Source: Falsiroseomonas oryzae (GTDB lineage Bacteria > Pseudomonadota > Alphaproteobacteria > Acetobacterales > Acetobacteraceae). Taken from it: a DNA stretch of 33,279 nucleotides. The first letter of the stretch is position 1. Each line of letters starts with the position of its first letter. The DNA is taken from positions 1 to 33,279 of the forward strand of contig NZ_JAPSMD010000015.1 of assembly GCF_027856955.1 (NCBI RefSeq), given 5' to 3'. The notes under the pieces are model-generated. The model was not told the origin of the DNA and ran no database searches. It was given only the letters and a program-made list of their open reading frames with translations. Positions 1,631 to 31,770 of this stretch are shown one piece after another. Both the position numbers and the translations under genes were made by a program.

Positions 1631-3085
1631 ATGGCCCTGCGCTGCGACCTCATCATCCGCGACGCCACGCTGTTCGACGGCACGGGCGGGCCGCGCCGCG
1701 TGGGCGACATCGGCGTCACCGGCGACCGGATCGCCGCGGTCGGCGACCTCGGCGGCGCGAGCGCGGACCGCGAGGTGATCGCCACCGGCAAGGCGGTCGC
1801 GCCCGGCTTCATCGATGCGCACACGCATGACGACAGGGCCGTGCTGATGGGGCCTGAGGGAACGCTCTGCAAGATCAGCCAGGGCGTCACCACGGTGGTC
1901 TGCGGCTGCTGCGGCGTGTCGCTCGCCCCGGCGCGCTTCAAGCGCACCCCGCCGCCGCCGCTCGACCTGGTGGGGGCTGAGGGCTGGTGGAGATACGGCG
2001 ACTTCGGCGATTACGCCCACGCCATCAACAGCCGTGGGTCGGAGGTCAACACCTACGCCCTGGTCGGCAACCAGACCCTGCGGGTGGAGGCGATGGACGG
2101 CGACGTCTATCGCGCCGCGAAGGACAGCGAGATCCACCACATGCACCAGCGGGTGAAGCAGGCGATGGCGGAAGGTGCCTCGGGCTTCTCCACCGGGCTC
2201 TACTACCCGCCCAACATGCATGCGACGACCGACGAGGTGGTTGCGATCACCGAGGCGCTGAAGCCCTTCGACGGGCTCTACTCGACCCATATGCGCGACG
2301 AGAGCCACCACATCCTGGCCGCCATCGAGGAGACGATGGAGATCGGCAAGCGCGCGGGCGTGCAGGTGCAGATCAGCCACCACAAATGCTCCCTGCCGGA
2401 GAACTACGGCCGGTCCATCCAGACGCTGCCGCTGCTGGAGGCCTATGCGCGGACGCAGCAGGTGGCCTTCGACGTCTATCCCTATCCCGCCGGGTCCACC
2501 GTGCTGATGCCCGACCGGCTGCGGGAGGATGTGAAGGTGATGATCACCTGGTCCATCCCGCACCCTGAGATGGCCGGCCGCTACCTGCACGAGATCGCGC
2601 GGGGCTGGAACACGGACATCAAGGCCGCGGCGGAACAGCTGCTGCCGGCCGGCCAGATCAGCTTCCAGATGGACGAGGACGACGTCCAGCGGATCATGGC
2701 GCATCCGATGTCCATGATCGGCAGCGACGGCATTCCGCATGACGCGCATCCGCATCCGCGGCTCTGGGGCACCTTCCCGCGCGTGCTGGGCCATTACGCG
2801 CGGGGGCTCGGCCTGTTCAGCATGGAGACGGCGATCCACAAGATGACCGGCCGCTGCGCCGAGGCCTACGGCATCGTGGACCGCGGCATCCTGAGGGAAG
2901 GCGCCTATGCCGACCTGGTTCTGTTCGACCCCGCCACGGTGATCGACGCCGCCACCTTCGAGAACCCGAAGCTGCCTTCGATCGGGATCGAGGAGGTCTG
3001 GACCAATGGCGTGCCGACGTTCCGCCACGGCGCCGGCGCCACGGGGGAGCGGCCGGGACGGCTGGTGACACGCCACAAGGCGTGA
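1631..3085 (+). CDS. N-acyl-D-amino-acid deacylase (D-aminoacylase family amidohydrolase)
   Basis: 484 residues of the metal-dependent amidohydrolase superfamily, predicted cytosolic. The N-terminal beta-sandwich segment (CDLIIRDATLFDGTG) is followed by H64-x-H66 in GFIDAHTHDD. Next come a cysteine-rich CGCCGVSLAP box (residues 91-100; D-aminoacylases bind zinc through a Cys here), STHMRDE, QISHHK (metal-binding His) and the GSDG aspartate that activates water. The C terminus returns to the sandwich (GAYADLVLFDPATV). Known family role: hydrolysis of N-acyl-D-amino acids to free D-amino acids and an acid. I chose the ATG at 1631 over an upstream TTG because MALRCDLIIRDA is the normal family start. 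The LysE-type exporter gene follows after 49 bp. Confidence 0.9.
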   Translation: MALRCDLIIRDATLFDGTGGPRRVGDIGVTGDRIAAVGDLGGASADREVIATGKAVAPGFIDAHTHDDRAVLMGPEGTLCKISQGVTTVVCGCCGVSLAPARFKRTPPPPLDLVGAEGWWRYGDFGDYAHAINSRGSEVNTYALVGNQTLRVEAMDGDVYRAAKDSEIHHMHQRVKQAMAEGASGFSTGLYYPPNMHATTDEVVAITEALKPFDGLYSTHMRDESHHILAAIEETMEIGKRAGVQVQISHHKCSLPENYGRSIQTLPLLEAYARTQQVAFDVYPYPAGSTVLMPDRLREDVKVMITWSIPHPEMAGRYLHEIARGWNTDIKAAAEQLLPAGQISFQMDEDDVQRIMAHPMSMIGSDGIPHDAHPHPRLWGTFPRVLGHYARGLGLFSMETAIHKMTGRCAEAYGIVDRGILREGAYADLVLFDPATVIDAATFENPKLPSIGIEEVWTNGVPTFRHGAGATGERPGRLVTRHKA

Positions 3086-3098
3086 TCAGGTGGAGCTG

Positions 3099-3128
3099 TT
3101 GACAAGGTCAGTGACGCTGACCTAACTG
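3099..3128 (+). promoter_or_regulatory. Promoter with a dyad between -35 and -10; leaderless start for the LysE-type gene
   Basis: A perfect -35 hexamer TTGACA lies at 3099-3104. After 17 bp it is followed by CTAACT (3122-3127), a fair -10. The spacer is filled by the inverted repeat AGGTCAG-tgacg-CTGACCT (3105-3123). The LysE-type gene starts with ATG at 3135, seven to eight bases after the -10, where transcription would be expected to begin, and there is no Shine-Dalgarno in between. A leaderless message under a regulator that binds the spacer dyad is an inference from this spacing. Confidence 0.5.
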
Positions 3129-9953: not shown

Positions 9954-12898
9954 GCCAGCGCCCGGTCAAGGAGCCGAATGGAGTGGATCGCCTCGCGCCC
10001 CGCCAGGTCGCCGATCTGGTGCCGGCAGGAGGTGCCGTCGGCAATGACGAAGGCCTGCGCGCCAGTCTTGCGGAGATGCGGCAGCAGCGCGAGTTCCGCC
10101 ATGGCCTTGCTGACGGGCAGGTTCGCCGCCTCGTAGCCGAAGGCGCCGGCCATGCCGCAGCAGGAGGAGGTGATCGGAACCACCTTCAGGCCGGGAATGC
10201 GCGTCAGCGCCGCGACCGCGGCAGGGAAGGCGCCGAACGCCTTCTGGTGACAATGGCCGTGGATATGCGCTTCGTCCCCGACCGGCTTCAGCGACAGCGC
10301 GGGCTTCGTCTCCGCCAGCCATTCCGAGACGAGCTTCGCCCGTGCCGCCAGCGCCTCCGCTGCGGGTCCCGGCACCAGCGCCAGGAACTCGTCGCGCAGC
10401 GTCATCAGGCAGGAGGGTTCGAGCCCCAGCACGGGGCTGTCCCAGCGCGACAGCGCGTCCAGCGTGCGCTGCGCCTCGGCGCGCGCCTCGGCCACCATGC
10501 CGGCTGCGAGATACGTCCGGCCGTCGTCCAGGGGCCGCGTGCCACGCGGTGGGCGCGCGATGGCGGGATCGGCGCCGGCGGCGCGCAGGACGCGCAGCGC
10601 GGCGCGCAGGTTCTCCGGCTCGAAGTAGCGGTTGAACAGGTCGGGCAGCAGGATGACCTCGTTGGCGCGGCCATCCGGCTCCCGGCACTCCCAATCGTGG
10701 AAGGCGTCGCGCCGGAAGCGGGGCAGGGGGCGGTCGGCGAAGCCGAGCAGCACCTTCGCCCCGGGGATCATCGCGGGCCAGTTGACGAGGGGCGCCAGCA
10801 TCGCGGCCCAGGGCGCCCAGCGCGGCATGGTCGCGACCAGCCGGTCCTTGAGTGCCACGCCTCGCGCGGCGTTGCGCGCGTTGGCCGCCTCGATCTTCAT
10901 CTTCGCCATGTCCACGCCGGTCGGGCATTCGCGCCGGCAGCCCTTGCAGGCCACGCAGAGCGACAGCGCCTCCGCCACCGCGTCGCCGGCCAGTCCGCCG
11001 GCAATCTGTCCGGTCAGCGCGAGGCGCAGCGTGTTGGCGCGGCCGCGGGTGACATGCGCCTCGTCGCGCGTGGCGCGGTAGGACGGGCACATCGTGCCGG
11101 CATCGAACTTCCGGCAGGTGCCGTTGTTGTTGCACATCTCCACCGCGCCGAGCAGGCCGCGCGTGGTGTCTCCCTGTCCGCCGGCCCAGGCCGACCAGTC
11201 CAGCGCAGGCGTGATTCGCGCATCCGCCGCGTAGTCCGGGCCGTAGCGGAACAGCGTCCGGTCATCCATGCGCGGCGGATGCACGATGCGGTTCGGGTTC
11301 AGCAGCCCATGCGGCAGCGCCGGCGTGCCCGGGTCGAAGGCGTCCTTCACATGCTCGAAGGCGCGGGCGATGCGGGCGCCGAACATCGGCTCGTTGAACT
11401 CGGAGCGGACGATGCCGTCGCCATGCTCGCCGGAATGGCTGCCCTTGTACTCGCGCACCAGGGCGAAGCATTCCTCCGCGATGGCGCGCATCTTCCGCAC
11501 GTCCTCGCCGGACTTCATGTTCAGCACGGGCCGCACATGCAGGCAGCCGACGCTGGCATGCGCATACCAGGTGCCGACGGTGCCGTGCCTCGCGAAGACG
11601 TCGTTCAGCCGCTCCGTGTAGTCGGCCAGGTCCTCCAGCGCGACGGCACAGTCCTCGATGAAGGAGACCGGCTTTCCGTCCCCCTTCATGCTCATCATGA
11701 TGTTGAGTCCGGCCTCCCGCACCTCCGCCACCTGGGCCTGGAAGGCGGCGTCGGTCACGCGCACCACTTGGCCCGGCAGGCCGAGGTCGCCCATCATCTC
11801 CTCCAGCCGGTCGAGCTGCCGCAGCAGCGGCGCGTCCTCCTGCCCGTGGAACTCGACAATCAGGAGCGAGTCCGGCTCGCCGATCAGGATGCGGTCGATG
11901 GTGCTGCGATAGATCGGGATGGAGCGGCCGAGGTCGATCATCGTCCGGTCCACGAGCTCCACCGCTTCCGGATCCAGCGTGACGAGGTGCTTCGAGGCCT
12001 CCATGGCGCGGCGGAAGGACGGGAACTGGCAGATGCCCAGCACCTTGCGCGGCTTGATCGGCCAGAGCTTCAGGTCCAGCGCCGCCGAGAAGGCCAGCGT
12101 GCCCTCGCTGCCCACCAGCAGCCGCGCAAGGCTCGCGCGCGACCCGTCACCCCGCGCGCCTGCCGGCGCGACCGCCCGTGCATCGGGCGTCAGCGCGTCC
12201 AGGTTGTAGCCGCCGACGCGACGGAGCTGTTGCGGGAACTTCGCCGCGATCTCCTCGGCCTCCCGCACGCCGATGGCGCGCAGCTTGGCGACGAGGTCGG
12301 CGACCGGCGGCGGAACGTCCGGGCCGAGATTGTCAGGCAGGTCCCCGAAGGCGAAGCGCGTGCCGTCGGCCAGGATGGCGTCGATGGCGCGGACATTGTC
12401 GGCCATCAGACCGTAGCGGATGGACTTCGACCCGCAGGAATTGTTGCCCGCCATGCCGCCGATGGTGCAGCGCGCCCAGGTTGAGGGATCCACCGGGAAG
12501 AACAGTCCCCTGGGCTTCAGCGCCTCGTTCAGCGCACCCAGGGTGATGCCGGGCTCCACCCGGGCGGTGTCGCCCTCCACGGAGAGGACTCGGCGCAGAT
12601 GCTTGGTGCAGTCCATCACCAGGGCGCGATTGACCGTCTGGCCGCACTGGCTGGTGCCGCCGCCCCGCGGCAGAACGGGCACTCCCTCCTCCCGGCAGAT
12701 CGCCATGGCGGTGGCGACGTCCTCGGCGCTGTGCGGCACCAGCACGCCGACCGGCTCCATCTGGTAGATCGAGGCATCGGTCGCGTAGCGGCCACGGTCG
12801 CCGGCGCCGAACAGCACCTCGCCTTGGGTCTCCCGGCGCAGCCGGTCGGCGAGGCGGGTGTCCTGGGCGGGGCGGTGAAGCAGGGCAGGGGCGTTCAT
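9950..12898 (-). CDS. FAD-binding and Fe-S D-2-hydroxyacid dehydrogenase (YdiJ/Dld-like)
   Basis: 982 residues with two fused halves. The N-terminal half is a GlcD-type FAD oxidase: VLPRGGGTSQCGQTVN in the PCMH FAD domain, GNNSCGSKS, then SVGCLHVRPV and SGEHGDGIVR in the substrate domain. The C-terminal half is ferredoxin-like plus CCG domains: CNNNGTCRKFDAGTMCPSY and CVACKGCRRECP (two 4Fe-4S sites), then SCLMTLRDE, HGHCHQKAFG and SSCCGMAGAFG. The length and fusion match YdiJ of E. coli, which oxidises D-2-hydroxyglutarate, and GlcD-GlcF fusions. Electrons would go to the respiratory chain. Serine-glyoxylate aminotransferase is divergent from it, which hints at glycolate or another glyoxylate-linked 2-hydroxyacid as substrate; that is inference. 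Confidence 0.9.
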   Translation of the reverse strand: MNAPALLHRPAQDTRLADRLRRETQGEVLFGAGDRGRYATDASIYQMEPVGVLVPHSAEDVATAMAICREEGVPVLPRGGGTSQCGQTVNRALVMDCTKHLRRVLSVEGDTARVEPGITLGALNEALKPRGLFFPVDPSTWARCTIGGMAGNNSCGSKSIRYGLMADNVRAIDAILADGTRFAFGDLPDNLGPDVPPPVADLVAKLRAIGVREAEEIAAKFPQQLRRVGGYNLDALTPDARAVAPAGARGDGSRASLARLLVGSEGTLAFSAALDLKLWPIKPRKVLGICQFPSFRRAMEASKHLVTLDPEAVELVDRTMIDLGRSIPIYRSTIDRILIGEPDSLLIVEFHGQEDAPLLRQLDRLEEMMGDLGLPGQVVRVTDAAFQAQVAEVREAGLNIMMSMKGDGKPVSFIEDCAVALEDLADYTERLNDVFARHGTVGTWYAHASVGCLHVRPVLNMKSGEDVRKMRAIAEECFALVREYKGSHSGEHGDGIVRSEFNEPMFGARIARAFEHVKDAFDPGTPALPHGLLNPNRIVHPPRMDDRTLFRYGPDYAADARITPALDWSAWAGGQGDTTRGLLGAVEMCNNNGTCRKFDAGTMCPSYRATRDEAHVTRGRANTLRLALTGQIAGGLAGDAVAEALSLCVACKGCRRECPTGVDMAKMKIEAANARNAARGVALKDRLVATMPRWAPWAAMLAPLVNWPAMIPGAKVLLGFADRPLPRFRRDAFHDWECREPDGRANEVILLPDLFNRYFEPENLRAALRVLRAAGADPAIARPPRGTRPLDDGRTYLAAGMVAEARAEAQRTLDALSRWDSPVLGLEPSCLMTLRDEFLALVPGPAAEALAARAKLVSEWLAETKPALSLKPVGDEAHIHGHCHQKAFGAFPAAVAALTRIPGLKVVPITSSCCGMAGAFGYEAANLPVSKAMAELALLPHLRKTGAQAFVIADGTSCRHQIGDLAGREAIHSIRLLDRALA

Positions 12899-13063
12899 CG
12901 GCGTTCCGGCATCTCCGGGCGGCCGGGTCCGGCCGCGGGGCTTGGGCGGCGTGATGCAGGATGGCGCAGCGCGGCGCTACCCCTCCCCGGCGGGCGGCAT
13001 ATTGCCCGTGGCGCGCCCGGGCGGGCATAAGCCCCGGCGAACCGAGGGAAAACCGTCCACGTC

Positions 13064-14248
13064 ATGGCCTATTTCCAGTCCAAGCCCGTCGCCGGCCGTC
13101 ACTTCCTGCAGATCCCGGGCCCGACCAACGTGCCCGACCGCGTGCTGCGGGCCATGGACAACCCCACGATGGACCATCGCGGCCCGGATTTCGGCCGCAT
13201 GGGCAAGGCGCTGCTGGAGAAGGTGCGGGCGGTCTTCAAGACACAGGGGCATGTGGTGATCTACCCGGCCTCCGGCACCGGGGCCTGGGAGGCGGCGCTG
13301 GTCAACACCCTCTCGCCCGGCGACCGCGTGCTGATGTGCGAGACCGGCTGGTTCGCGCATCTGTGGCACGAGATGGCCACGCGGCTGCAACTGGTGCCCG
13401 ACTACATCCGCACGGATTGGCGCCGTGGCGCCGATGTCGCGGCGATCGAGGAGAAGCTGCGCGAGGACAGGTCCCACAGCATCAAGGCCGTCTGCGTCGT
13501 CCACAACGAAACCAGCACCGGCTGCACCAGCCGCATCGACGAGGTGCGCAAGGCGATGGATGCCGCCGGCCACCCCGCGCTGCTGCTGGTGGACACCATC
13601 TCCTCCCTGGCCAGCATTGACTACCGTCATGACGAGTGGGGCGTGGACGTCACCGTGGCCGGGTCGCAGAAGGGCCTGATGCTGCCGCCGGGCCTGTCCT
13701 TCAACGCGGTCAGCGAGAAGGCGCTGAAGGCCAGCGAGACGGCGAAGCTGCCACGCGCCTTCTGGGACTGGAAGCCGATGCTGGCGGCCAACGCCACCGG
13801 CTACTTCCCCTACACGCCCGCGACCAACATGCTCTACGCGCTCGACACCGCCATCGACATGCTGATGGCGGAAGGGCTGGAGAACGTCTTCGCCCGCCAC
13901 GACCGGCACGCCGAGGCGACGCGGCGCGCGGTGCGACATTGGGGCTTCGAGATCCAGTGCGCGGAGCCCAGGCACTATTCCTCCGCCCTCACCGCGGTGC
14001 GCCTACCGGAGGGGCACAGCGCGAACGCGCTGCGCGCGACCATCCTGGAGAAGTTCAACATGAGCCTGGGCAACGGCCTGGGGCAGCTGAACGACCGGGT
14101 GTTCCGCATCGGTCATCTCGGCGATTTCGGCGATCTGCAGCTGGTCGGCACCCTGGGCGGGGTGGAGATGGGCCTGAAGGCCGCCGGAATCCCCTACAAG
14201 GCGGGTGGCGTGCTGGCGGCGATGGACTACCTGAACGGCAACGCCTGA
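13064..14248 (+). CDS. Serine-glyoxylate aminotransferase (class V aminotransferase)
   Basis: 394 residues, the normal length. It starts MAYFQSKPVAGRHFLQIPGP and keeps PGPTNVPDRVLRAM, NPTMDHRGPDF, PASGTGAWEAAL, VHNETSTGCTS and the PLP-binding K203 in GSQKGLMLPPG. Later, FRIGHLGDFGDLQLVGTLGG is characteristic of SgaA-type enzymes. Reaction: L-serine plus glyoxylate to hydroxypyruvate plus glycine, with PLP, in the cytosol. It is the first step of the serine branch of C1 assimilation or part of glyoxylate detoxification. It shares a 165-bp intergenic region with the divergent flavin/Fe-S dehydrogenase, so the pair may be jointly regulated. Confidence 0.92.
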   Translation: MAYFQSKPVAGRHFLQIPGPTNVPDRVLRAMDNPTMDHRGPDFGRMGKALLEKVRAVFKTQGHVVIYPASGTGAWEAALVNTLSPGDRVLMCETGWFAHLWHEMATRLQLVPDYIRTDWRRGADVAAIEEKLREDRSHSIKAVCVVHNETSTGCTSRIDEVRKAMDAAGHPALLLVDTISSLASIDYRHDEWGVDVTVAGSQKGLMLPPGLSFNAVSEKALKASETAKLPRAFWDWKPMLAANATGYFPYTPATNMLYALDTAIDMLMAEGLENVFARHDRHAEATRRAVRHWGFEIQCAEPRHYSSALTAVRLPEGHSANALRATILEKFNMSLGNGLGQLNDRVFRIGHLGDFGDLQLVGTLGGVEMGLKAAGIPYKAGGVLAAMDYLNGNA

Positions 14249-22900: not shown

Positions 22901-23386
22901 ATGTTGACGTTTGACTTTGAAAGGGAGGGTTACGCGCATTGTAATTGGCCGGGTTTTTATGATAAACATTTATTCTATGTAGTTGAGGGAAAGAACAAAT
23001 ACAGCGATCTAGTGCATGGCGCTAGCGTAAATAAAGGCGTCCGTAATGGTAGGGCGAAACCTGGCGAACAGAAAGGCATAAATTCCACGCTGGCCATAAC
23101 TAATGCTCAACGCGATGAGTTATTTTCTTGGCTTAATAACGGAACTCTCAATAAGCAATTTGCAAAATTATCTGCTCTGGGAAAAAATCAACGAGCAGAC
23201 ATCTCTGGCATTCCTGTCCTTGGCGTAGTTATATCACAGGTAAAGCAGAAGTGGCAGGTCAGAGCTGGTGGTGCCTTGACTTTGGGGTTCAAGAAGGCCG
23301 GTGTAAAGCACTGGATTGACCATTTCGCGTATCATGATTGGGATGGAAGTTACGTCGTTGGCGAGGGAGCCATATTCGACACGTAG
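22901..23386 (+). CDS. Orphan low-GC gene, unknown function
   Basis: 161 residues from ATG 22901, preceded by aaggggagatcgcga, a good ribosome binding site. Codon use is far from the rest of the window: A/T-ending codons are common (aaa, aat, gat, tta, ttt), so recent transfer is likely. The product starts MLTFDFEREGYAHCNWPGFY and is soluble, without signal peptide or membrane helix. It contains many aromatic residues near both ends and a basic middle (KYSDLVHGASVNKGVRNGRAK), ending HWIDHFAYHDWDGSYV. I recognise no domain. It sits next to the recombinase module, a usual place for defence or toxin genes, but nothing in the sequence itself shows such a role. Confidence 0.7.
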   Translation: MLTFDFEREGYAHCNWPGFYDKHLFYVVEGKNKYSDLVHGASVNKGVRNGRAKPGEQKGINSTLAITNAQRDELFSWLNNGTLNKQFAKLSALGKNQRADISGIPVLGVVISQVKQKWQVRAGGALTLGFKKAGVKHWIDHFAYHDWDGSYVVGEGAIFDT

Positions 23387-23552: not shown

Positions 23553-24038
23553 CTATTCGACGCGGCTGTCGGATCGCCCAGCCGGCGTGCCCGCAGAAGC
23601 ATGCGACGCAGAGCAGGACATGCGCCATCGCCTGACCCCCTGGAAGCGAAGCGGCTCCAAGCGGGGTGGCCGCGGCCAAGAACAGGTGATTTCAAGGAGG
23701 CCGCAGAGTTTCACCTCTCGTGCCTGGCGGCCCTCAATGATGGACTCAACCAGCTCCGGCGCCAGCAGGGTCAGGTTTAGTACCCGACCAATATAGGCGC
23801 GATCGACGCCTTCCGCGGCGGCGAGTTCGCGGATCGATCCATACCGCCCCTCCTCCAGCATTCGCCGCCACCGGAAAGCTCGCGCCAGCGCCTTCACCAG
23901 CGCCGGGTCGCCGCGCGTCTCCGCTATGCCCTCGCTGTCCCCGCCGGTCTGCACCGGCGCGCCATCCGGCCCGACGATCTGCTTCCGCCCGCCGCGGCGC
24001 CGGATGCTCATCGGCACCACCACCGTCACGCTGGTCAT
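23553..24038 (-). CDS. HTH protein of the serine-recombinase module, C terminus probably altered
   Basis: 161 residues. Residues about 60-105 (YGSIRELAAAEGVDRAYIGRV then LNLTLLAPELVESIIEGRQ) form a ParB/KorB-like helix-turn-helix, as found in the small protein that usually follows the DUF2924-recombinase pair. The N terminus (RRRGGRKQIVGPDG) also fits. Beyond residue 107 the sequence (SWPRPPRLEPLRFQG, then Ser/Ala/Arg-rich) no longer resembles the relatives I remember, so the 3' end may be frameshifted or replaced. Its ATG overlaps the recombinase stop by four bases (ATGA). It probably binds DNA and may control the module. Confidence 0.75.
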   Translation of the reverse strand: MTSVTVVVPMSIRRRGGRKQIVGPDGAPVQTGGDSEGIAETRGDPALVKALARAFRWRRMLEEGRYGSIRELAAAEGVDRAYIGRVLNLTLLAPELVESIIEGRQAREVKLCGLLEITCSWPRPPRLEPLRFQGVRRWRMSCSASHASAGTPAGRSDSRVE

Positions 24039-25356
24039 GCCGCGACCGCCTCCTTCGTCGCCATATCCCGCGCCAGCCCGGCCAGCCCTTCCAGGTTCAG
24101 CCGGATCTGCGCGCCCGCATCGGTCAGGTCCACGCGCTCGACCAGCAGCCGCACGATCCGCTCCTGCTCGCCGGGGAACAGTTCGTCCCAGAGCGGATCC
24201 AGCCGACCGAGCGCGTCGCGGACCTCGGCCTCGGTGAGGTCGGGCGCCTCTGCCCTGGCCGCGCGCCAGGTGCCGACTACCACCTCCGGCTGGCGCAGCA
24301 GGGCGCGGACCTGTGCCATCACCAGTCCCTCTATCTCGCCCGCCGGCAGGCGCCGATGCGGCGCGTCATTGGCGCCGCCCTGCAGCACGGTCTGGCTGAC
24401 GTAGTAGCGGTAGAGCCGTCCCTTCTTCCGAGTGTGGGTGGGCGACATGGCGCGCCCGTCCGGCCCGAACAGCAGCCCGCGTAGCAGCGCCGTGGCGGTG
24501 GTGCGGGACTTCGACGCGCGCTCCCGCGGGCTTTCACCAAGGATCGCGTGCACCCGGTCCCACAGCTCCCGCGGGATGATCGCCGCGTGCTCTCCGGGAT
24601 AGGCCGTCCCCTTGTGCACGGCCTCGCCGATGTAGACCCGGTTCACCAGGAGCTTGTAGAGCGCGCCCTTGTCGAAGGGCCGGCCCGTCTTCGTCACGTG
24701 CCCCTCCGCCGCCAGGATCGGCAGCAGGCGGGATCCGGAGCCGATCTCCGCGAACCCCTCGAACACGCGCCGCACCGTCGCGGCGGCGGCCTCGTCGACC
24801 AGGAGCTTGCGGTTCTCGACGCGGTAGCCGAGTGGCACCGGCCCGCCCATCCACATGCCGCGCGCCCGCGAGGCGGCGATCTTGTCGCGCACGCGCTCGC
24901 CGATCAGTTCACGCTCATACTGAGCGAAGCTGAGCAGCATGTTCAGCGTCAGCCGCCCCATGCTCGTCGTTGTGTTCAGCGACTGCGTAATTGCGACAAA
25001 CGTGACCTCGTGCGCCTCGAAGGTTTCGACCAGCTTCGCAAAGTCCATCAGCGACCGCGAAAGCCGGTCCACCTTATAGACCAGCACGACGTCCACGAGG
25101 CCGGCCTCGATGTCGGCCAGCAGCCGCTTCAGCGCGGGGCGATCGAGCGTGCCGCCACTGACCCCGCCATCGTCGTAGCGGTCGTGCACCAGCACCCATC
25201 CCTCGGACCGCTGCGAGGCGATATAGGCCTCGCAAGCCGCGCGCTGCGCCTCGAGCGAGTTGAACTCCTTGTCTAGACCCTCGTCCGTGGACTTCCGCGT
25301 GTAGACGGCGCAGCGGAGCTTGCGCACCTTCGCCGGCATGGCGGCATCGCGGCGGG

Positions 25357-25360
<4 letters not shown>
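24035..25360 (-). CDS. Large serine recombinase (resolvase/invertase N-terminal domain)
   Basis: 441 residues from ATG 25360. The catalytic serine is S24 in AVYTRKSTDEG. The resolvase domain continues with LEAQRAACEAYI, VYKVDRLSRSLMDFAKL and SMGRLTLNMLLSFAQYERE. Then come the recombinase domain (GPVPLGYRVENRKLLVDE, FDKGALYKLLVNRVYIGE) and a degenerate zinc-ribbon region (LLFGPDGRAMSPTHTRKKGR, YRYYVSQ) in which the usual Cys residues are not evident. Large serine recombinases cut and religate att sites of phages and integrative elements. It is the third gene in a four-gene ATGA-overlapped chain and is the best candidate for the integrase of the neighbouring prophage-like region. Confidence 0.95.
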
Positions 25361-25853
<493 letters not shown>

Positions 25854-25857
<4 letters not shown>

Positions 25858-26069
25858 GCGAATCCCTTTCTTCTGGGGTTCGCATGGGGGCGCTGGCCGG
25901 GGACGGAGTGTAGTCGAACCACCCTCTCGCCGCCGGCCGCGCGCGCGGCTTCCGCGGCAGCGCGGCTCCTGAGCCGCAGGAGCCCCCGGGCGAGCAGGTC
26001 GCAGACCTGGGCGAGGTGGGGTGGGAGGTGGGCGTTGGCGCTCGGTGTCGATCGGTTGGGCATCATCAT
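25854..26069 (-). CDS. Small protein, first gene of the serine-recombinase module
   Basis: 71 residues starting with three consecutive ATG codons (26069, 26066, 26063). The core LPPHLAQVCDLLARGLLRLRSR is a conserved amphipathic helix that I recall from the short gene upstream of DUF2924 in other alphaproteobacterial modules. The end HSVPGQRPHANPRRKG is basic. Its stop overlaps the DUF2924 start by ATGA, completing an unbroken four-gene chain. No strong Shine-Dalgarno is visible, so the choice among the three ATGs is open. Function unknown. Confidence 0.7.
25855..25886. promoter_or_regulatory. Hairpin over the DUF2924 start codon
   Basis: CATGCGAATCCC (25855-25866) pairs with GGGGTTCGCATG (25875-25886) across an 8-nt loop: twelve positions with one T/G mismatch. 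In the leftward mRNA it would bury the start codon of DUF2924, with its purine-rich ribosome binding site in the loop. Ribosomes finishing the upstream small gene would open it. Confidence 0.5.
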
Positions 26070-26251
26070 GCCGCGACCATCTACCGGCTGCGCAGCGCGA
26101 CGAAACAGCGAAGATGCAGCGGGCGAAGGCGAGCGACGAAGAAAGCAGCGGAGCGAACTCCGCCAGTTTCCCGACCCAAATGTGCGGCGAATCGGTATTC
26201 TTCTCGAATCGAACCCGGCGCTGCACGTCGGGGAACGCTGTCGGGGGACGC

Positions 26252-27511
26252 ATGCCTGCTGCGCGGGGGATGGAATTCGTCGCCAGTGGCGTTTTGGCAG
26301 AGGCGATTAGCCGGACGTCTGCAGATCACTACGTGATCTGGACGGGGCATACCTATCCATCGTGGCAGGTGTCGCTGCGCTCCCGAGCCCTTGCTCAGAT
26401 CAGGGAGGTCGGTGTCCCCGTGCCGCTGCGCGAACTACTCAGGCGCGCAGCTCGCATCGAGGGCAGCCTAGGCTTGGATCCTGGCACGGTGCGCAGCGGG
26501 GTCCGACTTCATCAAGGTGCCAAGCCAGCTGTCTATCTGCTGGTCGAGCGCAATCGCATGGGCGACTACACGGCTCTCACTGACATTCCATACGCCGGGC
26601 CTGCCTTCCGTCGAATTGCGAAGGGCGCAGTTGTCTTGGATCGTGCGGGTCGCTTGTTTGTGGAATGCCTGAGGGAGTCGCCCCGGCCAGCGCAGGCAGC
26701 GGCACAGATGGCGCGGCGTGAGGACGAAGTGCTCCCGCATCCGTCGCTGCGTCAGAGAACGCCCCGTGCGACAATCCGCTCGGCACCGATGGGTCCGGCT
26801 GATCTCCCGCCGGAGCTGCGCCCAAGGCCGGCCGCGTCGAAGACCGCTGCGCGTACCCCGGACGAGGTCACCTGCGGCAGCGACGCAGCGCAACTACGGA
26901 ATTGGCGCGAGCAGGCCTTGGCGACGGATCGGCCGCGGACGCTGCGTGACGTCAGTGCGCGGACGCGCCGCCGCGCGATGCTGGCTCTGCCGCATATGCG
27001 ACCGCTTGCCGCCTTTGCAGAGCAACTCCGCGCTGCCAAGCCAAGCACAGAGGTGCCGGATTTCGATCCCCTGGACGGTGGCGTGAATGCGCAAGTCCTC
27101 TTCCTGTTCGAGAAGCCCGGCCCCATGGCTGGCTCGTCGGGCTTCATCAGCCGGAACAACGACGACCGCACTGCTGAAGCTACCTTCCACTTCATGCTTG
27201 CCGCCGGCCTGCCGCGTCATGCGACCTGCCTGTGGAATGCGGTGCCGTGGTGGAACGGCAAGCGCGAGGTATCGTCGACAGAACTGCAGGAGGGCGCTGG
27301 CAGCGCGCTGGGTCTTGCGCAGCTGTTGCCAGAGCTCCGGGTCGCTGTCTTGGTAGGACTTCGAGCGGGCAGGGTTGCGCGGGAGCTTCGGCAGCGCGGG
27401 CTTGTCGTACTCTCATCGTATCACCCATCACCAATCAATCGCGCCGCCTCGCCGGCGAAGTGGAACGCAATCCCTGCTGAGTGGGCGAGGGTGAAGCAGT
27501 ACCTGCGCTAA
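26252..27511 (+). CDS. Two-domain protein with C-terminal uracil-DNA-glycosylase-like domain
   Basis: 419 residues from ATG 26252 (after gggggacgc); earlier in-frame starts are possible. The C-terminal domain (about 250-419) is UDG-superfamily-like: VLFLFEKPGPMAGSSGFISR, then NNDDRTAEATFHFMLAAGLP, CLWNAVPWWNG, VAVLVGLRAGRVA, and SSYHPSPINR, whose HPSP is the usual third UDG motif. The N-terminal part (about 1-145) has HYVIWTGHTYPSW, then VPVPLRELLRRAARI and YAGPAFRRIAKGAVVLDR. I do not recognise it. A Pro/Arg-rich linker joins the two. The family excises uracil or related bases; activity here is inferred from motifs only. The gene is divergent from the recombinase module, and its G+C is below the core's. 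Confidence 0.75.
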   Translation: MPAARGMEFVASGVLAEAISRTSADHYVIWTGHTYPSWQVSLRSRALAQIREVGVPVPLRELLRRAARIEGSLGLDPGTVRSGVRLHQGAKPAVYLLVERNRMGDYTALTDIPYAGPAFRRIAKGAVVLDRAGRLFVECLRESPRPAQAAAQMARREDEVLPHPSLRQRTPRATIRSAPMGPADLPPELRPRPAASKTAARTPDEVTCGSDAAQLRNWREQALATDRPRTLRDVSARTRRRAMLALPHMRPLAAFAEQLRAAKPSTEVPDFDPLDGGVNAQVLFLFEKPGPMAGSSGFISRNNDDRTAEATFHFMLAAGLPRHATCLWNAVPWWNGKREVSSTELQEGAGSALGLAQLLPELRVAVLVGLRAGRVARELRQRGLVVLSSYHPSPINRAASPAKWNAIPAEWARVKQYLR

Positions 27512-27703
27512 GTTTCGCTCCATCACCGGCGCTCTGGCAGTGGATCATCGCTGCCGGATCATAAGTGATTGCGTCAGCCGGCACGCAGTGACAGGCTTTC
27601 CGGGTCCACGCCGAAGAGCGACATCTTCGGTAGGCTTCACCGATCAGCTCTTGAGATCGGTATCTTGCCAAGCGTCCTTCATCCGTCGACAGGGCTGGCA
27701 ACA

Positions 27704-29095
27704 ATGGAAAAGAATGAGAGCGACAAGGCAAAGGCCGACCTATCAGCCTATCGGCTGGAGCGATTGAAGGTCGGGGGTAATGTCCTGACCGTGCTCATCA
27801 CCGTGGGCTTCGGAACCCTTGGACTTGGCTGGCTGAACGCCAGCTACCAAGATCGGCAGAAGGCGGCGGACCGAGAGATCGAGCAAGCGCGTGTGCGAAT
27901 AGAGGAGATCAAACTCGAGACCGAGCGCGTACGGGCGGAGAGCCAACAGCGATTGGAGGAGATGAAGAATCTCGGCTCGTTCATCGAGATCGCTCTCGAT
28001 CAGCGTCTTGAAAGGCGGCTGCGCTTTGCGGAGTATTTCTCTTTCATGACCCTGTCGGACGACTTCCGAAGCCGATGGTCCGAGTATCACTCCTCCCTTT
28101 CATCGGACCTGAATGCGCTGATTGACGCCGAAACGGAGTTGGCGCGCGCTCAGCAACAGGGTGACGCTGGCGCTATGGCAGTTGCCAGCCAGCGGTTCGC
28201 AAGACTGCAGAACTACTCCGCACGCATCGCGATGAACACCCGTAGGCCAGACTCGTCATCGCTGATTGCCGCACACATAGAGACGACGCCTCCTCGGGAT
28301 CCCGGAGCATTGGTCCGACCTGCAGGGCTGCCGACGGTACCGACAAGCCCGACAGGCCCACGCCCTCCGGCAGCGTCTGACAACACGCGCTGCATACCTG
28401 ACCGGCTGCGGTCGGCGCTTCCGGCTCTCACGGTCCCTCACCGCCGCTTCGAGGGGTCGATCTTCTGGTCGCTCACCCCAGGAGGCATCGCCCTCCACGA
28501 CGGACCCGATGATGCAAGTCCCGAGCAGGTCGGCTTCACGCCGGCAGAAAGCGCTCTGGTCGCAGCGGTTCTGCGTGATCACGGCTCCGCAATTGCAACT
28601 GCGGCTCGCGAGTTCGGCGTTCCAGCCGAGTTGCTGATCACCAGCATCATCGTCAACAGCGCGAATCGGCCCAGCGCCGTTCGAACCGAGCCAGGCTTTG
28701 CCAGTGATGAGCGTTCTCCAAGCCGCGTTTCCGTTGGGCTCACGCAGATACTGCTCTCGACCGCCCGCGCTGTCCTCCGTGATCCTAGTCTGACGAGGGA
28801 GCAGTTGTTCGACCCTGCCCTGAACGTGAGGGCAGGCGCGAGCTTCCTGGCATCTCACTTCGAGCGGACCAGCTTTGATCCACCGTTGGTGGCAGCTGCC
28901 GAGAATGCCGGCGGGGTGTTCTTCAACGACGCGCCGGCAAATCGCTGGAAGCTGCGCAGCTTTCCTGTTGGAACGTCGGTACTAATCGATCGCTCTGTCC
29001 GTGCCTTCAACGCGTCGCTTGCGCATTTGGCTGTGCCCGAGAATCGCCTACGCCAGGAGGTGCCTACGTTCGAGGCTTGCCTACGTCGCGACTGA
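27704..29095 (+). CDS. Membrane-anchored coiled-coil protein with transglycosylase-like domain, catalytic Glu apparently replaced by Asn
   Basis: 463 residues from ATG 27704. One transmembrane helix (about 24-45, NVLTVLITVGFGTLGLGWL) is followed by a charged coiled coil (about 48-92), a Pro/Thr-rich linker, and a C-terminal domain (about 300-445). That domain resembles SLT/lysozyme-like domains: SVGLTQILLSTARAVL, LFDPALNVRAGASFL, VAAAENAGGVFF, then NRWKLRSFPVGTS. Relatives I recall read I-C-T-E-S-G-G at the catalytic site. Here the aligned segment is IIVNSANRPSAVRTEPGF with N318 in place of Glu, and the usual A-Y-N-A-G-G is AENAGG. It may bind peptidoglycan without cutting it. It is 192 bp after the UDG-like gene, same strand. 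Confidence 0.7.
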   Translation: MEKNESDKAKADLSAYRLERLKVGGNVLTVLITVGFGTLGLGWLNASYQDRQKAADREIEQARVRIEEIKLETERVRAESQQRLEEMKNLGSFIEIALDQRLERRLRFAEYFSFMTLSDDFRSRWSEYHSSLSSDLNALIDAETELARAQQQGDAGAMAVASQRFARLQNYSARIAMNTRRPDSSSLIAAHIETTPPRDPGALVRPAGLPTVPTSPTGPRPPAASDNTRCIPDRLRSALPALTVPHRRFEGSIFWSLTPGGIALHDGPDDASPEQVGFTPAESALVAAVLRDHGSAIATAAREFGVPAELLITSIIVNSANRPSAVRTEPGFASDERSPSRVSVGLTQILLSTARAVLRDPSLTREQLFDPALNVRAGASFLASHFERTSFDPPLVAAAENAGGVFFNDAPANRWKLRSFPVGTSVLIDRSVRAFNASLAHLAVPENRLRQEVPTFEACLRRD

Positions 29096-29161
29096 CAGCC
29101 GGACCAAATGAGCGCCCGTCACCGATGCCAGGAGCGTCGAGAAGCGGACGAAGTTGTCCGG

Positions 29162-29286
29162 CCCGACACAGGGCAGGGTAGCGTGCGTCGCCCTGTTCCG
29201 GCCCAATTCGTGCAGCACCGCCGCCTCTCCAGCGCGTCGATCCCGCGCAGCCGAGTACGGTCGCCTTCCACGTCGAAGCATCCTTC
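29162..29286 (-). pseudogene. Possible staphylococcal-nuclease-like fragment
   Basis: Directly after, and in frame with, the repressor stop codon, the minus strand reads CFDVEGDRTRLRGIDALERR, then RCCTNWAGTGRRTLPC. The R-x-R-L-R-G-I-D-A-x-E core recalls the central motif of thermonuclease (SNase) domains (RLxGIDAPE). There is no start codon and the expected N- and C-terminal parts are missing, so if real it is a fragment. An overlapping frame (29081-29290) looks like chance. Confidence 0.25.
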
Positions 29287-29997
29287 TCACAACCGCCGCG
29301 CCGCCCAGATCACGCGCCCGATGATGCTGACCTCCTCCGCGACTCGCTCGTAGGTCTGGTAGTCCGGGTTCACCGACTTGATGACGACGGTGGCGGGCTC
29401 GGAGTTCGGGATGTGCTCGACGCGCTTGGCGACCACACCCATGCCGTCCCAGATCACGAAGATCCCCGGCGGCACCGGCACGCGTTGGCTGGTGTCGACC
29501 AGGATGCGATCGCCCGAGTGCAGCAGCGGCTGCATTGAGTCGCCGTCGATGGTGATGACCCGCAGGTCCTCCGGCTTCGCCCGGAACTCGTGGCGGATCA
29601 TCGCCTCCGAGAAGATCCAGCTGGCCTTCGCGTCCTCGAGGCCCTCGTTCAATGCACCGGGCCCGGCAGAGGCACGCACGTCGAGTTCGGCAATCGCCAC
29701 GTAGCCGTCGAGCGCGGCGCTGCGCCGGCGGCGCACGGGCGCGGGCTCACCCTGCTCGGCGATGGGGGGTGGCAGCGCGCCAGGTTCGGACGGCGGGCGG
29801 ATCTCCGCATCGGGCACACCGAGCAGCGCGGCTAGCGCTTCGCGCGCGTCCTCGGGCAGCACCTTCGGCACGCCACGGGTGACGTACTGGTGGAGATAGG
29901 CGGCGTTGCGGCCGATCGCGAGCGAGGCATTCTTCAGGTCGGTGCCCCGCTCCTGGATCAGCTTCATGACCCGGAGACGGGTCGGGTCGAGCTCCAT
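29287..29997 (-). CDS. Prophage-type repressor with S24 (LexA/CI-like) peptidase domain
   Basis: 236 residues from ATG 29997, preceded by acaaggagttagccgcc. The N-terminal HTH is LKNASLAIGRNAAYLHQYV (about 21-39), DNA-binding. After a Pro-rich linker, ASAG (A111-G112) is the likely self-cleavage site. The peptidase domain has the S154 nucleophile in IDGDSMQPLLHSGDRILVD and the K191 base in GMGVVAKRVE. By family knowledge, RecA filaments would trigger autocleavage and induction. It is divergent from the Cro-like gene at 30089, with a palindromic site between. This switch marks the left end of the prophage control region. Confidence 0.92.
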   Translation of the reverse strand: MELDPTRLRVMKLIQERGTDLKNASLAIGRNAAYLHQYVTRGVPKVLPEDAREALAALLGVPDAEIRPPSEPGALPPPIAEQGEPAPVRRRRSAALDGYVAIAELDVRASAGPGALNEGLEDAKASWIFSEAMIRHEFRAKPEDLRVITIDGDSMQPLLHSGDRILVDTSQRVPVPPGIFVIWDGMGVVAKRVEHIPNSEPATVVIKSVNPDYQTYERVAEEVSIIGRVIWAARRL

Positions 29998-30023
29998 GGC
30001 GGCTAACTCCTTGTCCCGGCACG

Positions 30024-30039
30024 ATAGGTAATAGCCTAT
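30024..30039. promoter_or_regulatory. Candidate repressor operator in the divergent switch region
   Basis: ATAGG-taatag-CCTAT (30024-30039) is a 16-bp dyad in the only AT-rich part of the 91-bp gap between the repressor and Cro-like genes. It is followed by a T-rich run (30039-30044). Promoters for both directions must overlap it. Only one copy is seen. Confidence 0.5.
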
Positions 30040-30088
30040 TTTTTGTGTTTGACCAGCATGGATCTGCTGGGCATTCCTGTCGCCAGCC

Positions 30089-30307
30089 ATGCGAACATTG
30101 AGTGAACAATTTCTCGCCGAGGTGGAGGCCTTCCTGCGCGCCTCCCGCATGAAGCCGACCGATTTTGGGCGCGAGGCCGTTGGCGATCCCAGCTTCGTCA
30201 CCCGTCTGCGGCAAGGGCGTTCGCCCAGCCTGGCCACGGCCGACAAGGTCCGGGCCTTCATCAGCCGATTGGATGCCAGGACCACCAGCCGGAGGCCCTC
30301 CCGGTGA
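30089..30307 (+). CDS. Cro-like small HTH regulator
   Basis: 72 residues, starting MRTLSEQFLAEVEAFLRASR. The helix-turn-helix is MKPTDFGREAVGDPSFVTRL, then RQGRSPSLATADKVRAFIS, of the phage regulator/XRE type. Position and orientation, facing the S24 repressor across one operator, suggest a Cro or CII role; that is context. No strong Shine-Dalgarno precedes the ATG. Its stop overlaps the next gene's GTG start (GTGA, 30304-30307). Confidence 0.75.
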   Translation: MRTLSEQFLAEVEAFLRASRMKPTDFGREAVGDPSFVTRLRQGRSPSLATADKVRAFISRLDARTTSRRPSR

Positions 30308-30600
30308 GAGATTGTCCTATTCTGCACCTGAACCAGGTGCAACTGGCCCGACGCTGGAGCCTCAGCCCGCGGACGCTGGAGCGGTGGCGCTGGCGCGAGC
30401 AGGGGCCCGCTTACCTGAAGGTCGGCGGCCGGGTGGTGTACCGCCTGGAAGACGTCGAGGCCTACGAGCGCGCCGCAGCGCGGCAGCCGGACGCGGCGCG
30501 TCGTGAGGCGCGGGGAGGAGACGCGCTGCTCTCCCCCGCCCGATCGATGAGGCGGCCTTTGCCGCCTGGCTGGAACGGGCCGAGGCCGGTGAGCGCCTGA
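30304..30600 (+). CDS. Excisionase/MerR-like HTH protein
   Basis: 98 residues from GTG 30304. The core VQLARRWSLSPRTLERWRWR, then EQGPAYLKVGGRVVYRLEDV followed by EAYE, is the winged-HTH of AlpA/excisionase-type proteins (HTH_17), so DNA binding is likely. Relatives usually end soon after the EAYE segment. Here about 35 residues of low-quality sequence follow, the last 17 of which only shadow the next gene. This suggests a frame problem near the five-C run at 30533-30537. The role could be excision control or early regulation. Confidence 0.75.
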   Translation: MRDCPILHLNQVQLARRWSLSPRTLERWRWREQGPAYLKVGGRVVYRLEDVEAYERAAARQPDAARREARGGDALLSPARSMRRPLPPGWNGPRPVSA

Positions 30601-30821
30601 CCTACTGGCGCGGCCACCTGGCGATCGACGCGTCGCCGCTGGTCTCGCGGCTCCGCGGCGAGGACCGGCTGCAGCTGGATCTCGTCAGCCGGCTCGCCTG
30701 GAACACGGCGCAGCAGGGCTGGCCGGATCTGCTGCAGCAGCGGCACGGCTCGCACGACTTCAGCTACGTCGCCGTGCGGCGACGCCCGGAGCCGGCGATG
30801 CCGGTGCGGCTGGCCGCGTGA
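30507..30821 (+). CDS. Early-operon protein of unknown function without an ordinary start codon
   Basis: The frame is open from 30507 and clearly coding from about 30540: PIDEAAFAAWLERAEAGERL, TYWRGHLAIDASPLVSRLRG, LQLDLVSRLAWNTAQQGWPD. There is no ATG, GTG or TTG in frame before this conserved part. It would join the preceding HTH gene by a -1 shift at the C5 run (30533-30537), giving LLSP-RPIDEAAF. So it is either a fused or frameshifted product, or it starts at a rare codon such as ATC 30543. The domain is unknown; similar small proteins occur in alphaproteobacterial prophages as I recall. A TGATG at 30819-30823 could start a 19-residue peptide ending at 30880. Confidence 0.6.
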   Translation, partial: GAGRRRAALPRPIDEAAFAAWLERAEAGERLTYWRGHLAIDASPLVSRLRGEDRLQLDLVSRLAWNTAQQGWPDLLQQRHGSHDFSYVAVRRRPEPAMPVRLAA

Positions 30822-30943
30822 TGCGCGCGCTGCGCCCCATGCCAGAGGTCCTGGCGATGCCGGCCGCCGACGACGGATAGCGGCCGCTCCGCGCGGCTTC
30901 CTCCCTCACCGATCCCAGACCAGCCCGAACGGAGCATCGCTGC

Positions 30944-31324
30944 ATGCTGTCCGAACGATCGCCGATTCCCGAAACGCAACTTGCCGCCGCGCTGATCCGC
31001 CGGGCGCTGGACGATGCCCTCACGCCGGATGAGCGTCTCGCCAAAGAGCACCTGACGGACACACCGCAGGGGCTTCGCGTCAGCGTCTCCAGTGGCGTCA
31101 CGGCCGCGGAGCGCACGGAGGCGGTGCGCTTTCTGCTCGACACCTCGCGCTCCTGGTCGGAGTCCCGCCGCGCCTGGTGTGATGCGGTCGGCCTCGATCC
31201 CGCGCAGCTGGTGCGGCACGCGCTGCGGCACGTGCCGCTCGCGGTGATCCCGCGCGACATCCGGCTGGCCCGGCGCATGGGCACGTCCGTCCCGGCGACC
31301 ACCGCGCTGCGGGAGGCGGCGTGA
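30944..31324 (+). CDS. Prophage early protein, unknown function
   Basis: 126 residues beginning MLSERSPIPETQLAAALIRR. It is soluble, mostly helical by composition, with FLLDTSRSWSESRRAWCDAV in the middle and HALRHVPLAVIPRDIRLAR near the end. No catalytic motif is visible and I do not recognise it. The stop overlaps the next gene (GTGATG at 31321-31326), so it is part of the early operon with the two nucleases. Confidence 0.7.
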   Translation: MLSERSPIPETQLAAALIRRALDDALTPDERLAKEHLTDTPQGLRVSVSSGVTAAERTEAVRFLLDTSRSWSESRRAWCDAVGLDPAQLVRHALRHVPLAVIPRDIRLARRMGTSVPATTALREAA

Positions 31325-31770
31325 TGGGCAAGGCGTCCCGCGACAAGGGCCTGCGCCGCGAGCGCGCCCTCGTCGAGATCCACACCAAGTGCGGCATCCA
31401 TGCCGAGCGCGTGCCGCTGTCGGGTGCGTCCCACTACCAGGGCAATGGCGGCGACCTCGACATCTATGCCCGCGGTCGCGGCGCGCCGCCCTACACCGCC
31501 GAGGTCAAAGCCCGCGGCAATGGCAGCGGCTTCAAGCTGCTGGCGGGCTGGCTCGCCGGCCATGACGCGCTGTTCCTCTGGCAGGACCGCGCCGCGCCGC
31601 TGGTCGTGCTGCCGCTGCATGTCTGGCTCGAGCTGCTGAGCTTCGCGGCGCCGGCCAATGACCAGGGCAGCATCCAGCCTGACCCCGACGCCGAGACGGA
31701 GCGGCTGCAGCGCCGCACCGCGGCCGAGCAGGGAAGGCCGGTCGACGCCGTGGCGGAGCGCGCAGCATGA
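31324..31770 (+). CDS. PD-(D/E)XK endonuclease, Holliday-junction-resolvase-like
   Basis: 148 residues from ATG 31324 (or GTG 31321). The N terminus SRDKGLRRERALVEIH resembles the leading helix with a conserved Glu/Arg of resolvase-like nucleases. The core GGDLDIYARG, then PPYTAEVKARGNGSG, gives the D-x(n)-E-V-K catalytic signature. GFKLLAGWLAGHDALFLWQD follows the usual alpha/beta pattern. Known relatives cut branched DNA or act as small phage nucleases. The C-terminal 40 residues are hydrophilic. It overlaps the next gene by ATGA (31767-31770). Confidence 0.7.
   Translation: MGKASRDKGLRRERALVEIHTKCGIHAERVPLSGASHYQGNGGDLDIYARGRGAPPYTAEVKARGNGSGFKLLAGWLAGHDALFLWQDRAAPLVVLPLHVWLELLSFAAPANDQGSIQPDPDAETERLQRRTAAEQGRPVDAVAERAA

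Follow-up and report, generated by a model that had tools for sequence, protein, structure and literature searches.

A uracil-DNA glycosylase-superfamily fusion and a degenerate transglycosylase-like protein as apparently separate cargo of an Acetobacteraceae prophage

Uracil-DNA glycosylases (UDGs) of families 4, 5, and UdgX bind a 4Fe-4S cluster through four cysteines, and in UdgX a histidine of the R-loop cross-links uracil DNA. DNA glycosylases with anti-phage activity are a recent discovery, and few members of this class are known. Two of them, Brig1 and Brig3, belong to the UDG superfamily and are encoded in defense islands, and some Brig genes adjoin genes for an ADP-ribosyl glycohydrolase and SIR2 (PMC11078745, PMC13160076). 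The recognition residue of Brig1 is a glutamate, E147 (PMC11078745), and Brig3 consists of one domain and has BapA as its separate partner (PMC11078745, PMC13160076).

Here we analyze a window of 33,279 nucleotides, one whole contig of a 6.45-Mb assembly of Falsiroseomonas oryzae, in which two intact genes on the same strand, 192 bases apart, encode a UDG-like fusion (P0001) and a membrane protein with a transglycosylase-like SLT domain (P0002) (Table 1). A preliminary description made from the letters alone had drawn attention to this pair as genes of lower G+C content than their surroundings, and both the open reading frames and their composition bear this out: G+C content is 0.656 in P0001 and 0.616 in P0002 versus 0.69 to 0.73 in the surroundings, and GC3 is 0.71 and 0.68 versus 0.88 to 0.94 in the recombinase, DUF2924, and repressor genes and one downstream prophage gene. 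The pair had been described as cargo between a recombinase module and a CI/Cro-type switch, and Pfam and PHROG matches of the flanking genes support this position within an Acetobacteraceae prophage, with a serine recombinase and a DUF2924 protein to the left and an S24/CI-like repressor to the right; the Cro-like partner, by contrast, has only a weak match. Between the chromosomal genes and the serine recombinase there is also a 161-aa open reading frame (22901-23386, plus strand) that has no family match and coincides with a local dip in G+C content to about 0.50 in a 750-base window; it may represent a recent insertion, separate from the element, at the element's edge.

Table 1. Features of the cargo region and its flanks (coordinates are positions in the window)
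Feature	Coordinates	Strand	Basis
Large serine recombinase, integration module of the element	24035..25462	-	Resolvase/Recombinase/Zn-ribbon Pfam; PHROG integrase 1e-107
DUF2924 protein of the recombinase module	25357..25884	-	PF11149 6.8e-51
P0001 (gene 1), UDG-like fusion, 419 aa	26252-27511	+	ORF
Orphan N-terminal domain of P0001, ~140 aa	26252..26671	+	No family match; stand-alone homologues; dN/dS about 0.12
Low-complexity linker of P0001, about residues 141-215	26672..26896	+	Poorly conserved; AF2 pLDDT below 50
UDG-superfamily glycosylase domain of P0001	26897..27508	+	PF03167, AF2, Foldseek, profile alignment to UdgX, dN/dS about 0.13
Replaceable slot	27497..29286	.	blastn homology to AR75 prophage ends at 27496, restarts at 29287
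P0002 (gene 2), TM/coiled-coil/SLT protein, 463 aa	27704-29095 (feature row 27704..29092)	+	ORF
S24/CI-like repressor	29287..29997	-	PF00717 8.5e-13; PHROG repressor 2.5e-30
Cro-like candidate	30089-30304		PHROG E 0.025, weak match

The preliminary description had further proposed that the two genes act jointly, and a two-gene defense system, in which the glycosylase would detect or damage phage DNA and the SLT-like membrane protein would carry out the response at the envelope, would fit adjacent, same-strand genes of low GC3 with a 192-base gap. A shared cargo slot is weak evidence for joint function, however, and a comparison with Roseomonas sp. AR75 (G612; locus L088) separates the two: a syntenic prophage there carries the P0001 fusion in the same slot and lacks the SLT gene. 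Window positions 24060-27496 align by blastn to L088 7595-11031 with 72% DNA identity and positions 29287-31631 to 11566-13881 with 79%, and the 1.8 kb that contain P0002 are replaced in L088 by 0.5 kb that encode a thermonuclease on the opposite strand (SNase, Pfam 4e-14). Profile searches recovered SLT relatives in 0 of 51 UDG loci and a UDG in 0 of 57 SLT loci; these loci span about 1.5 to 10 kb on each side of the match, with some overlapping and some shortened by contig breaks, and an association at distances beyond this span would be compatible with the counts. Six Acetobacteraceae genomes have strong matches to both UDG and SLT, in each case on separate contigs or at a distance of 580 kb, and in no set searched did homologues of the two occur together. 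A promoter-like site at the start of gene 2 is weak and no more than expected by chance, and no convincing relatives of the N-terminal half of P0002 turned up among the sequences searched, both of which also speak against the two-gene system. We therefore reject a joint UDG-SLT system on the basis of the AR75 replacement and the locus counts, and consider it highly improbable. Because they adjoin only here, the two genes are best regarded, from sequence comparison, as separate pieces of cargo that happen to be neighbors in this prophage.

The UDG-like domain that had been noticed from its LFEKPGP and HPSP motifs withstood both profile and structural scrutiny. Residues 279-401 of P0001 match the Pfam UDG family PF03167 (8.1e-7, 29.7 bits, cutoff 24.3), the AF2 model has pLDDT values mostly between 85 and 97 from about residue 209 onward, and Foldseek searches with this model returned UDGs (family 4, UdgX, and SMUG1) as the best matches, with a best E value of 2.4e-6 and TM scores by target length of up to 0.72 against family-4 UDGs. 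The best structural neighbors of the domain are 4zbx, 1vk2, and 6ajr (family 4 UDG/UdgX). Motif A (FEKPGP) and motif B (HPSP) are conserved across the UDG relatives, placing the protein within the UDG superfamily. Alignment to UdgX of a profile built from 15 relatives shows that P0001 retains E287 in motif A, F298, N329, and H391 in motif B; we take E287 to correspond to the motif-A glutamate, F298 to lie near the base-stacking phenylalanine, and N329 to fall on the uracil-reading asparagine. The functional roles of these residues are well established for the family. The whole of P0001 contains only three cysteines (Cys139, Cys208, and Cys326), of which two lie outside the UDG core, and it therefore lacks the 4Fe-4S cluster of families 4, 5, and X. 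The KRRIH-type loop of UdgX is absent from the P0001 family in the profile alignment, and none of the PADLOC models matches P0001.

The N-terminal domain had been called unrecognised, and it remained so in all searches, with no match in Pfam, NCBIfam, PHROGs, PADLOC, or the PDB; while the UDG superfamily itself is known, this domain of P0001 is previously undescribed. Pfam, PDB profile, viral, and genome scans recovered only four intact copies, all in a set of 347 Acetobacteraceae genomes (P0001, the AR75 fusion, and two stand-alone genes), together with one fragment in a further member of the family (G361). The stand-alone genes each encode 143 aa with 59% identity to the P0001 domain; one (L105:1964-2395) adjoins a tyrosine integrase elsewhere in the genome that carries P0001, and the other (L093:7500-7931), from Siccirubricoccus deserti, lies near genes that appear phage-like from the gene map. 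P0001 and the AR75 fusion share 72% amino acid identity over their full length, and the ATG start of P0001 is common to the AR75 orthologue and both stand-alone homologues. Both domains have low dN/dS relative to that orthologue (Table 1), indicating that each is under purifying selection, and the linker between them is poorly conserved in the two-sequence alignment, with AF2 pLDDT below 50 over residues 135-208. Two intact fusions with low dN/dS, together with the existence of stand-alone parts, therefore argue that the fusion is a real, constrained protein assembled from two separately mobile parts. The helix-helix-strand-strand pattern of the N-terminal domain hints at a winged helix, but we make no claim of one, as two AF2 runs on the domain gave unusable models of low confidence (pLDDT 30-60 and 43).

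A single clear hydrophobic segment (residues ~23-45) in P0002 is followed by a charged, coiled-coil-like stretch, and the protein matches the SLT family PF01464 (1.6e-10, 41 bits, cutoff 21.3), in agreement with its first description as a transmembrane coiled-coil protein with a transglycosylase-like domain. The prefix "pseudo" given to that domain is also supported: in an alignment of P0002 with 13 relatives (14 sequences), the catalytic-glutamate column holds Asn318 in P0002 and glutamate in all 13 relatives, and the AYNAG motif reads AENAG. P0002 carries the SLT domain of a lytic transglycosylase and lacks its catalytic glutamate; the best reading is that the domain has no catalytic activity and perhaps binds peptidoglycan. 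The C-terminal 200 aa are about 38 to 46% identical to SLT proteins of other Acetobacteraceae (L109, L113, L114, and others), most of which are found in a conserved chromosomal neighborhood with a small lipoprotein and a mechanosensitive-channel-like gene (named by reading of the gene map). These core proteins keep the catalytic glutamate and have an N-terminal region resembling a peptidoglycan-binding domain, whereas P0002 has the transmembrane/coiled-coil region and Asn318. A diverged SLT relative in another genome (G185; L126:8580-9467) likewise retains the glutamate, and its GLMQ motif is changed to GLGA. A further accessory protein combines an SLT domain with a membrane region at its N terminus (L118:3143-4576, minus strand) and is followed by a separate transmembrane/coiled-coil gene (2113-3111, minus strand), so that this locus has parts like those of P0002 split over two genes; we found no sequence homology between the second gene and the N terminus of P0002 and do not treat them as homologues.

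One reading of P0002 is as a separate superinfection-exclusion or envelope-binding protein whose dead SLT domain would bind peptidoglycan and hinder other phages by blocking either their lytic enzymes or the entry of their DNA. The combination of a transmembrane segment, a coiled coil, and an SLT domain with a Glu-to-Asn change is consistent with this, as is the cargo slot beside the prophage repressor, and the N-terminal regions of relatives, peptidoglycan-binding-like in the A6 consensus and a membrane region in L118, suggest the reuse of a shared cell-wall-binding domain. P0002 is nevertheless a single example with no close homologue and may simply be decaying, and we hold the exclusion reading as tentative and rather doubtful. 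It is compatible with, rather than opposed to, our preferred explanation of P0001 as an independent cargo glycosylase.

Stand-alone relatives of the UDG domain, ~185 to 220 aa in length, are present in many bacteria, on plasmids (83 plasmid records), and on viral contigs, and the collection of sequenced phages gave no match to the family. In a 32-sequence tree, the UDG domains of the window and AR75 group with those of two viral contigs (L130 and L131; support 98/97) that carry the same kind of serine recombinase/DUF2924 module, and the closest relatives belong to the cargo of prophages, plasmids, and islands. The module is not a fixed partner of the UDG gene, as a UDG lies within reach in 0 of 80 further DUF2924 viral loci. 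Several relatives have defense genes as neighbors: BrxA/B/C in L130 (BrxB 2.5e-77); HsdM/HsdR (type I R-M) and SIR2 in L132, which has its own recombinase/DUF2924 genes; a type I R-M operon directly after the relative in L133; and, on a Paracoccus zhejiangensis plasmid (L146:5966-13507), an ADP-ribosylglycohydrolase gene directly upstream of the relative, with SIR2 and DUF87 nearby. These are raw observations, and prophages and islands carry defense genes anyway; neighboring genes with no family match were named by reading of their sequence. Other relatives are located in stress/transport operons (LysR/TDT/DUF305; L151, L153, and L155) or in a purine-catabolism region (L152). In several alphaproteobacteria, a UDG-superfamily protein is also encoded in a conserved biosynthetic cluster (L100:6936-17001, L101:81-9872, L102:3175-11998, and L104:997-9414), where a PIG-L deacetylase gene and in most cases an epimerase gene adjoin it and YcaO, GT4, Gfo/Idh, methyltransferase, and HD-domain genes are present; this is an unexpected place for a glycosylase-like protein.

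The main rival to a defense role is that P0001 is an ordinary accessory repair enzyme on a mobile element, removing uracil that arises from deaminated cytosine in high-GC host or phage DNA. Such plain uracil repair is possible because the pocket keeps the asparagine usual in uracil enzymes and not the glutamate of Brig1; many family members in metabolic and stress operons also favor it, as does the NCBI annotation of relatives as simply uracil-DNA glycosylase. However, the closest UDG clade consists of mobile-element genes, several relatives adjoin BREX, R-M, or SIR2 genes, and the fused N-terminal domain also occurs alone in phage cargo positions, so that we consider repair a genuine possibility, though not the probable one. 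A putative defense role for the glycosylase, already suspected in the preliminary description, is plausible given these neighbors and the precedent of Brig1 and Brig3. Our preferred explanation, which we judge about evenly balanced between right and wrong, is that P0001 is a glycosylase carried as independent cargo. It would create abasic sites where uracil-type bases occur, most likely in competing DNA, and the N-terminal domain would have a targeting or regulatory role. On this view, the variable region of this Acetobacteraceae prophage holds two independent cargo genes, of which the second is exchangeable. The base that P0001 would flip out and excise from DNA is most likely uracil or a modified pyrimidine resembling it, with an abasic site left behind. 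By attacking the DNA of competing phages or plasmids in this way, as Brig1/Brig3 do, P0001 would benefit the lysogen or the element; the N-terminal domain would direct or regulate the glycosylase, and P0002 would be unrelated to it, a protein anchored in the membrane whose SLT domain is catalytically dead. A narrower version, in which P0001 is an anti-phage glycosylase whose mobile ~140-aa N-terminal domain targets or switches the Fe-S-free UDG enzyme against a modified phage base or a replication structure, seems to us unlikely. A mobile, Fe-S-free family of the UDG superfamily that recurs by serine-recombinase modules, and sometimes close to BREX or R-M genes, is a testable candidate for widening the class of anti-phage glycosylases, and the orphan N-terminal domain, alone or fused, provides a handle on how such a glycosylase might be aimed.

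Compared with the described systems, P0001 is closest in structure to family 4 UDGs and UdgX, with the E-x-P-G motif A and the Asn and His motifs in alignment, but it is without the four cysteines for a 4Fe-4S cluster and, unlike UdgX, without the KRRIH loop. When compared with Brig1 and Brig3 by fold, setting, and published description, P0001 shares the UDG superfamily fold and the character of a small mobile accessory gene, and its relatives include members of islands with BREX, SIR2, and ADP-ribosylglycohydrolase genes; the surroundings of the Paracoccus plasmid relative closely resemble those published for relatives of Brig1. Location is mixed in this family, with some relatives near BREX, R-M, and SIR2 genes and others in metabolic operons. 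P0001 differs from Brig1 in having Asn329, as in uracil enzymes, in place of the glutamate, and from the single-domain Brig3 with its partner BapA in being fused to an orphan N-terminal domain.
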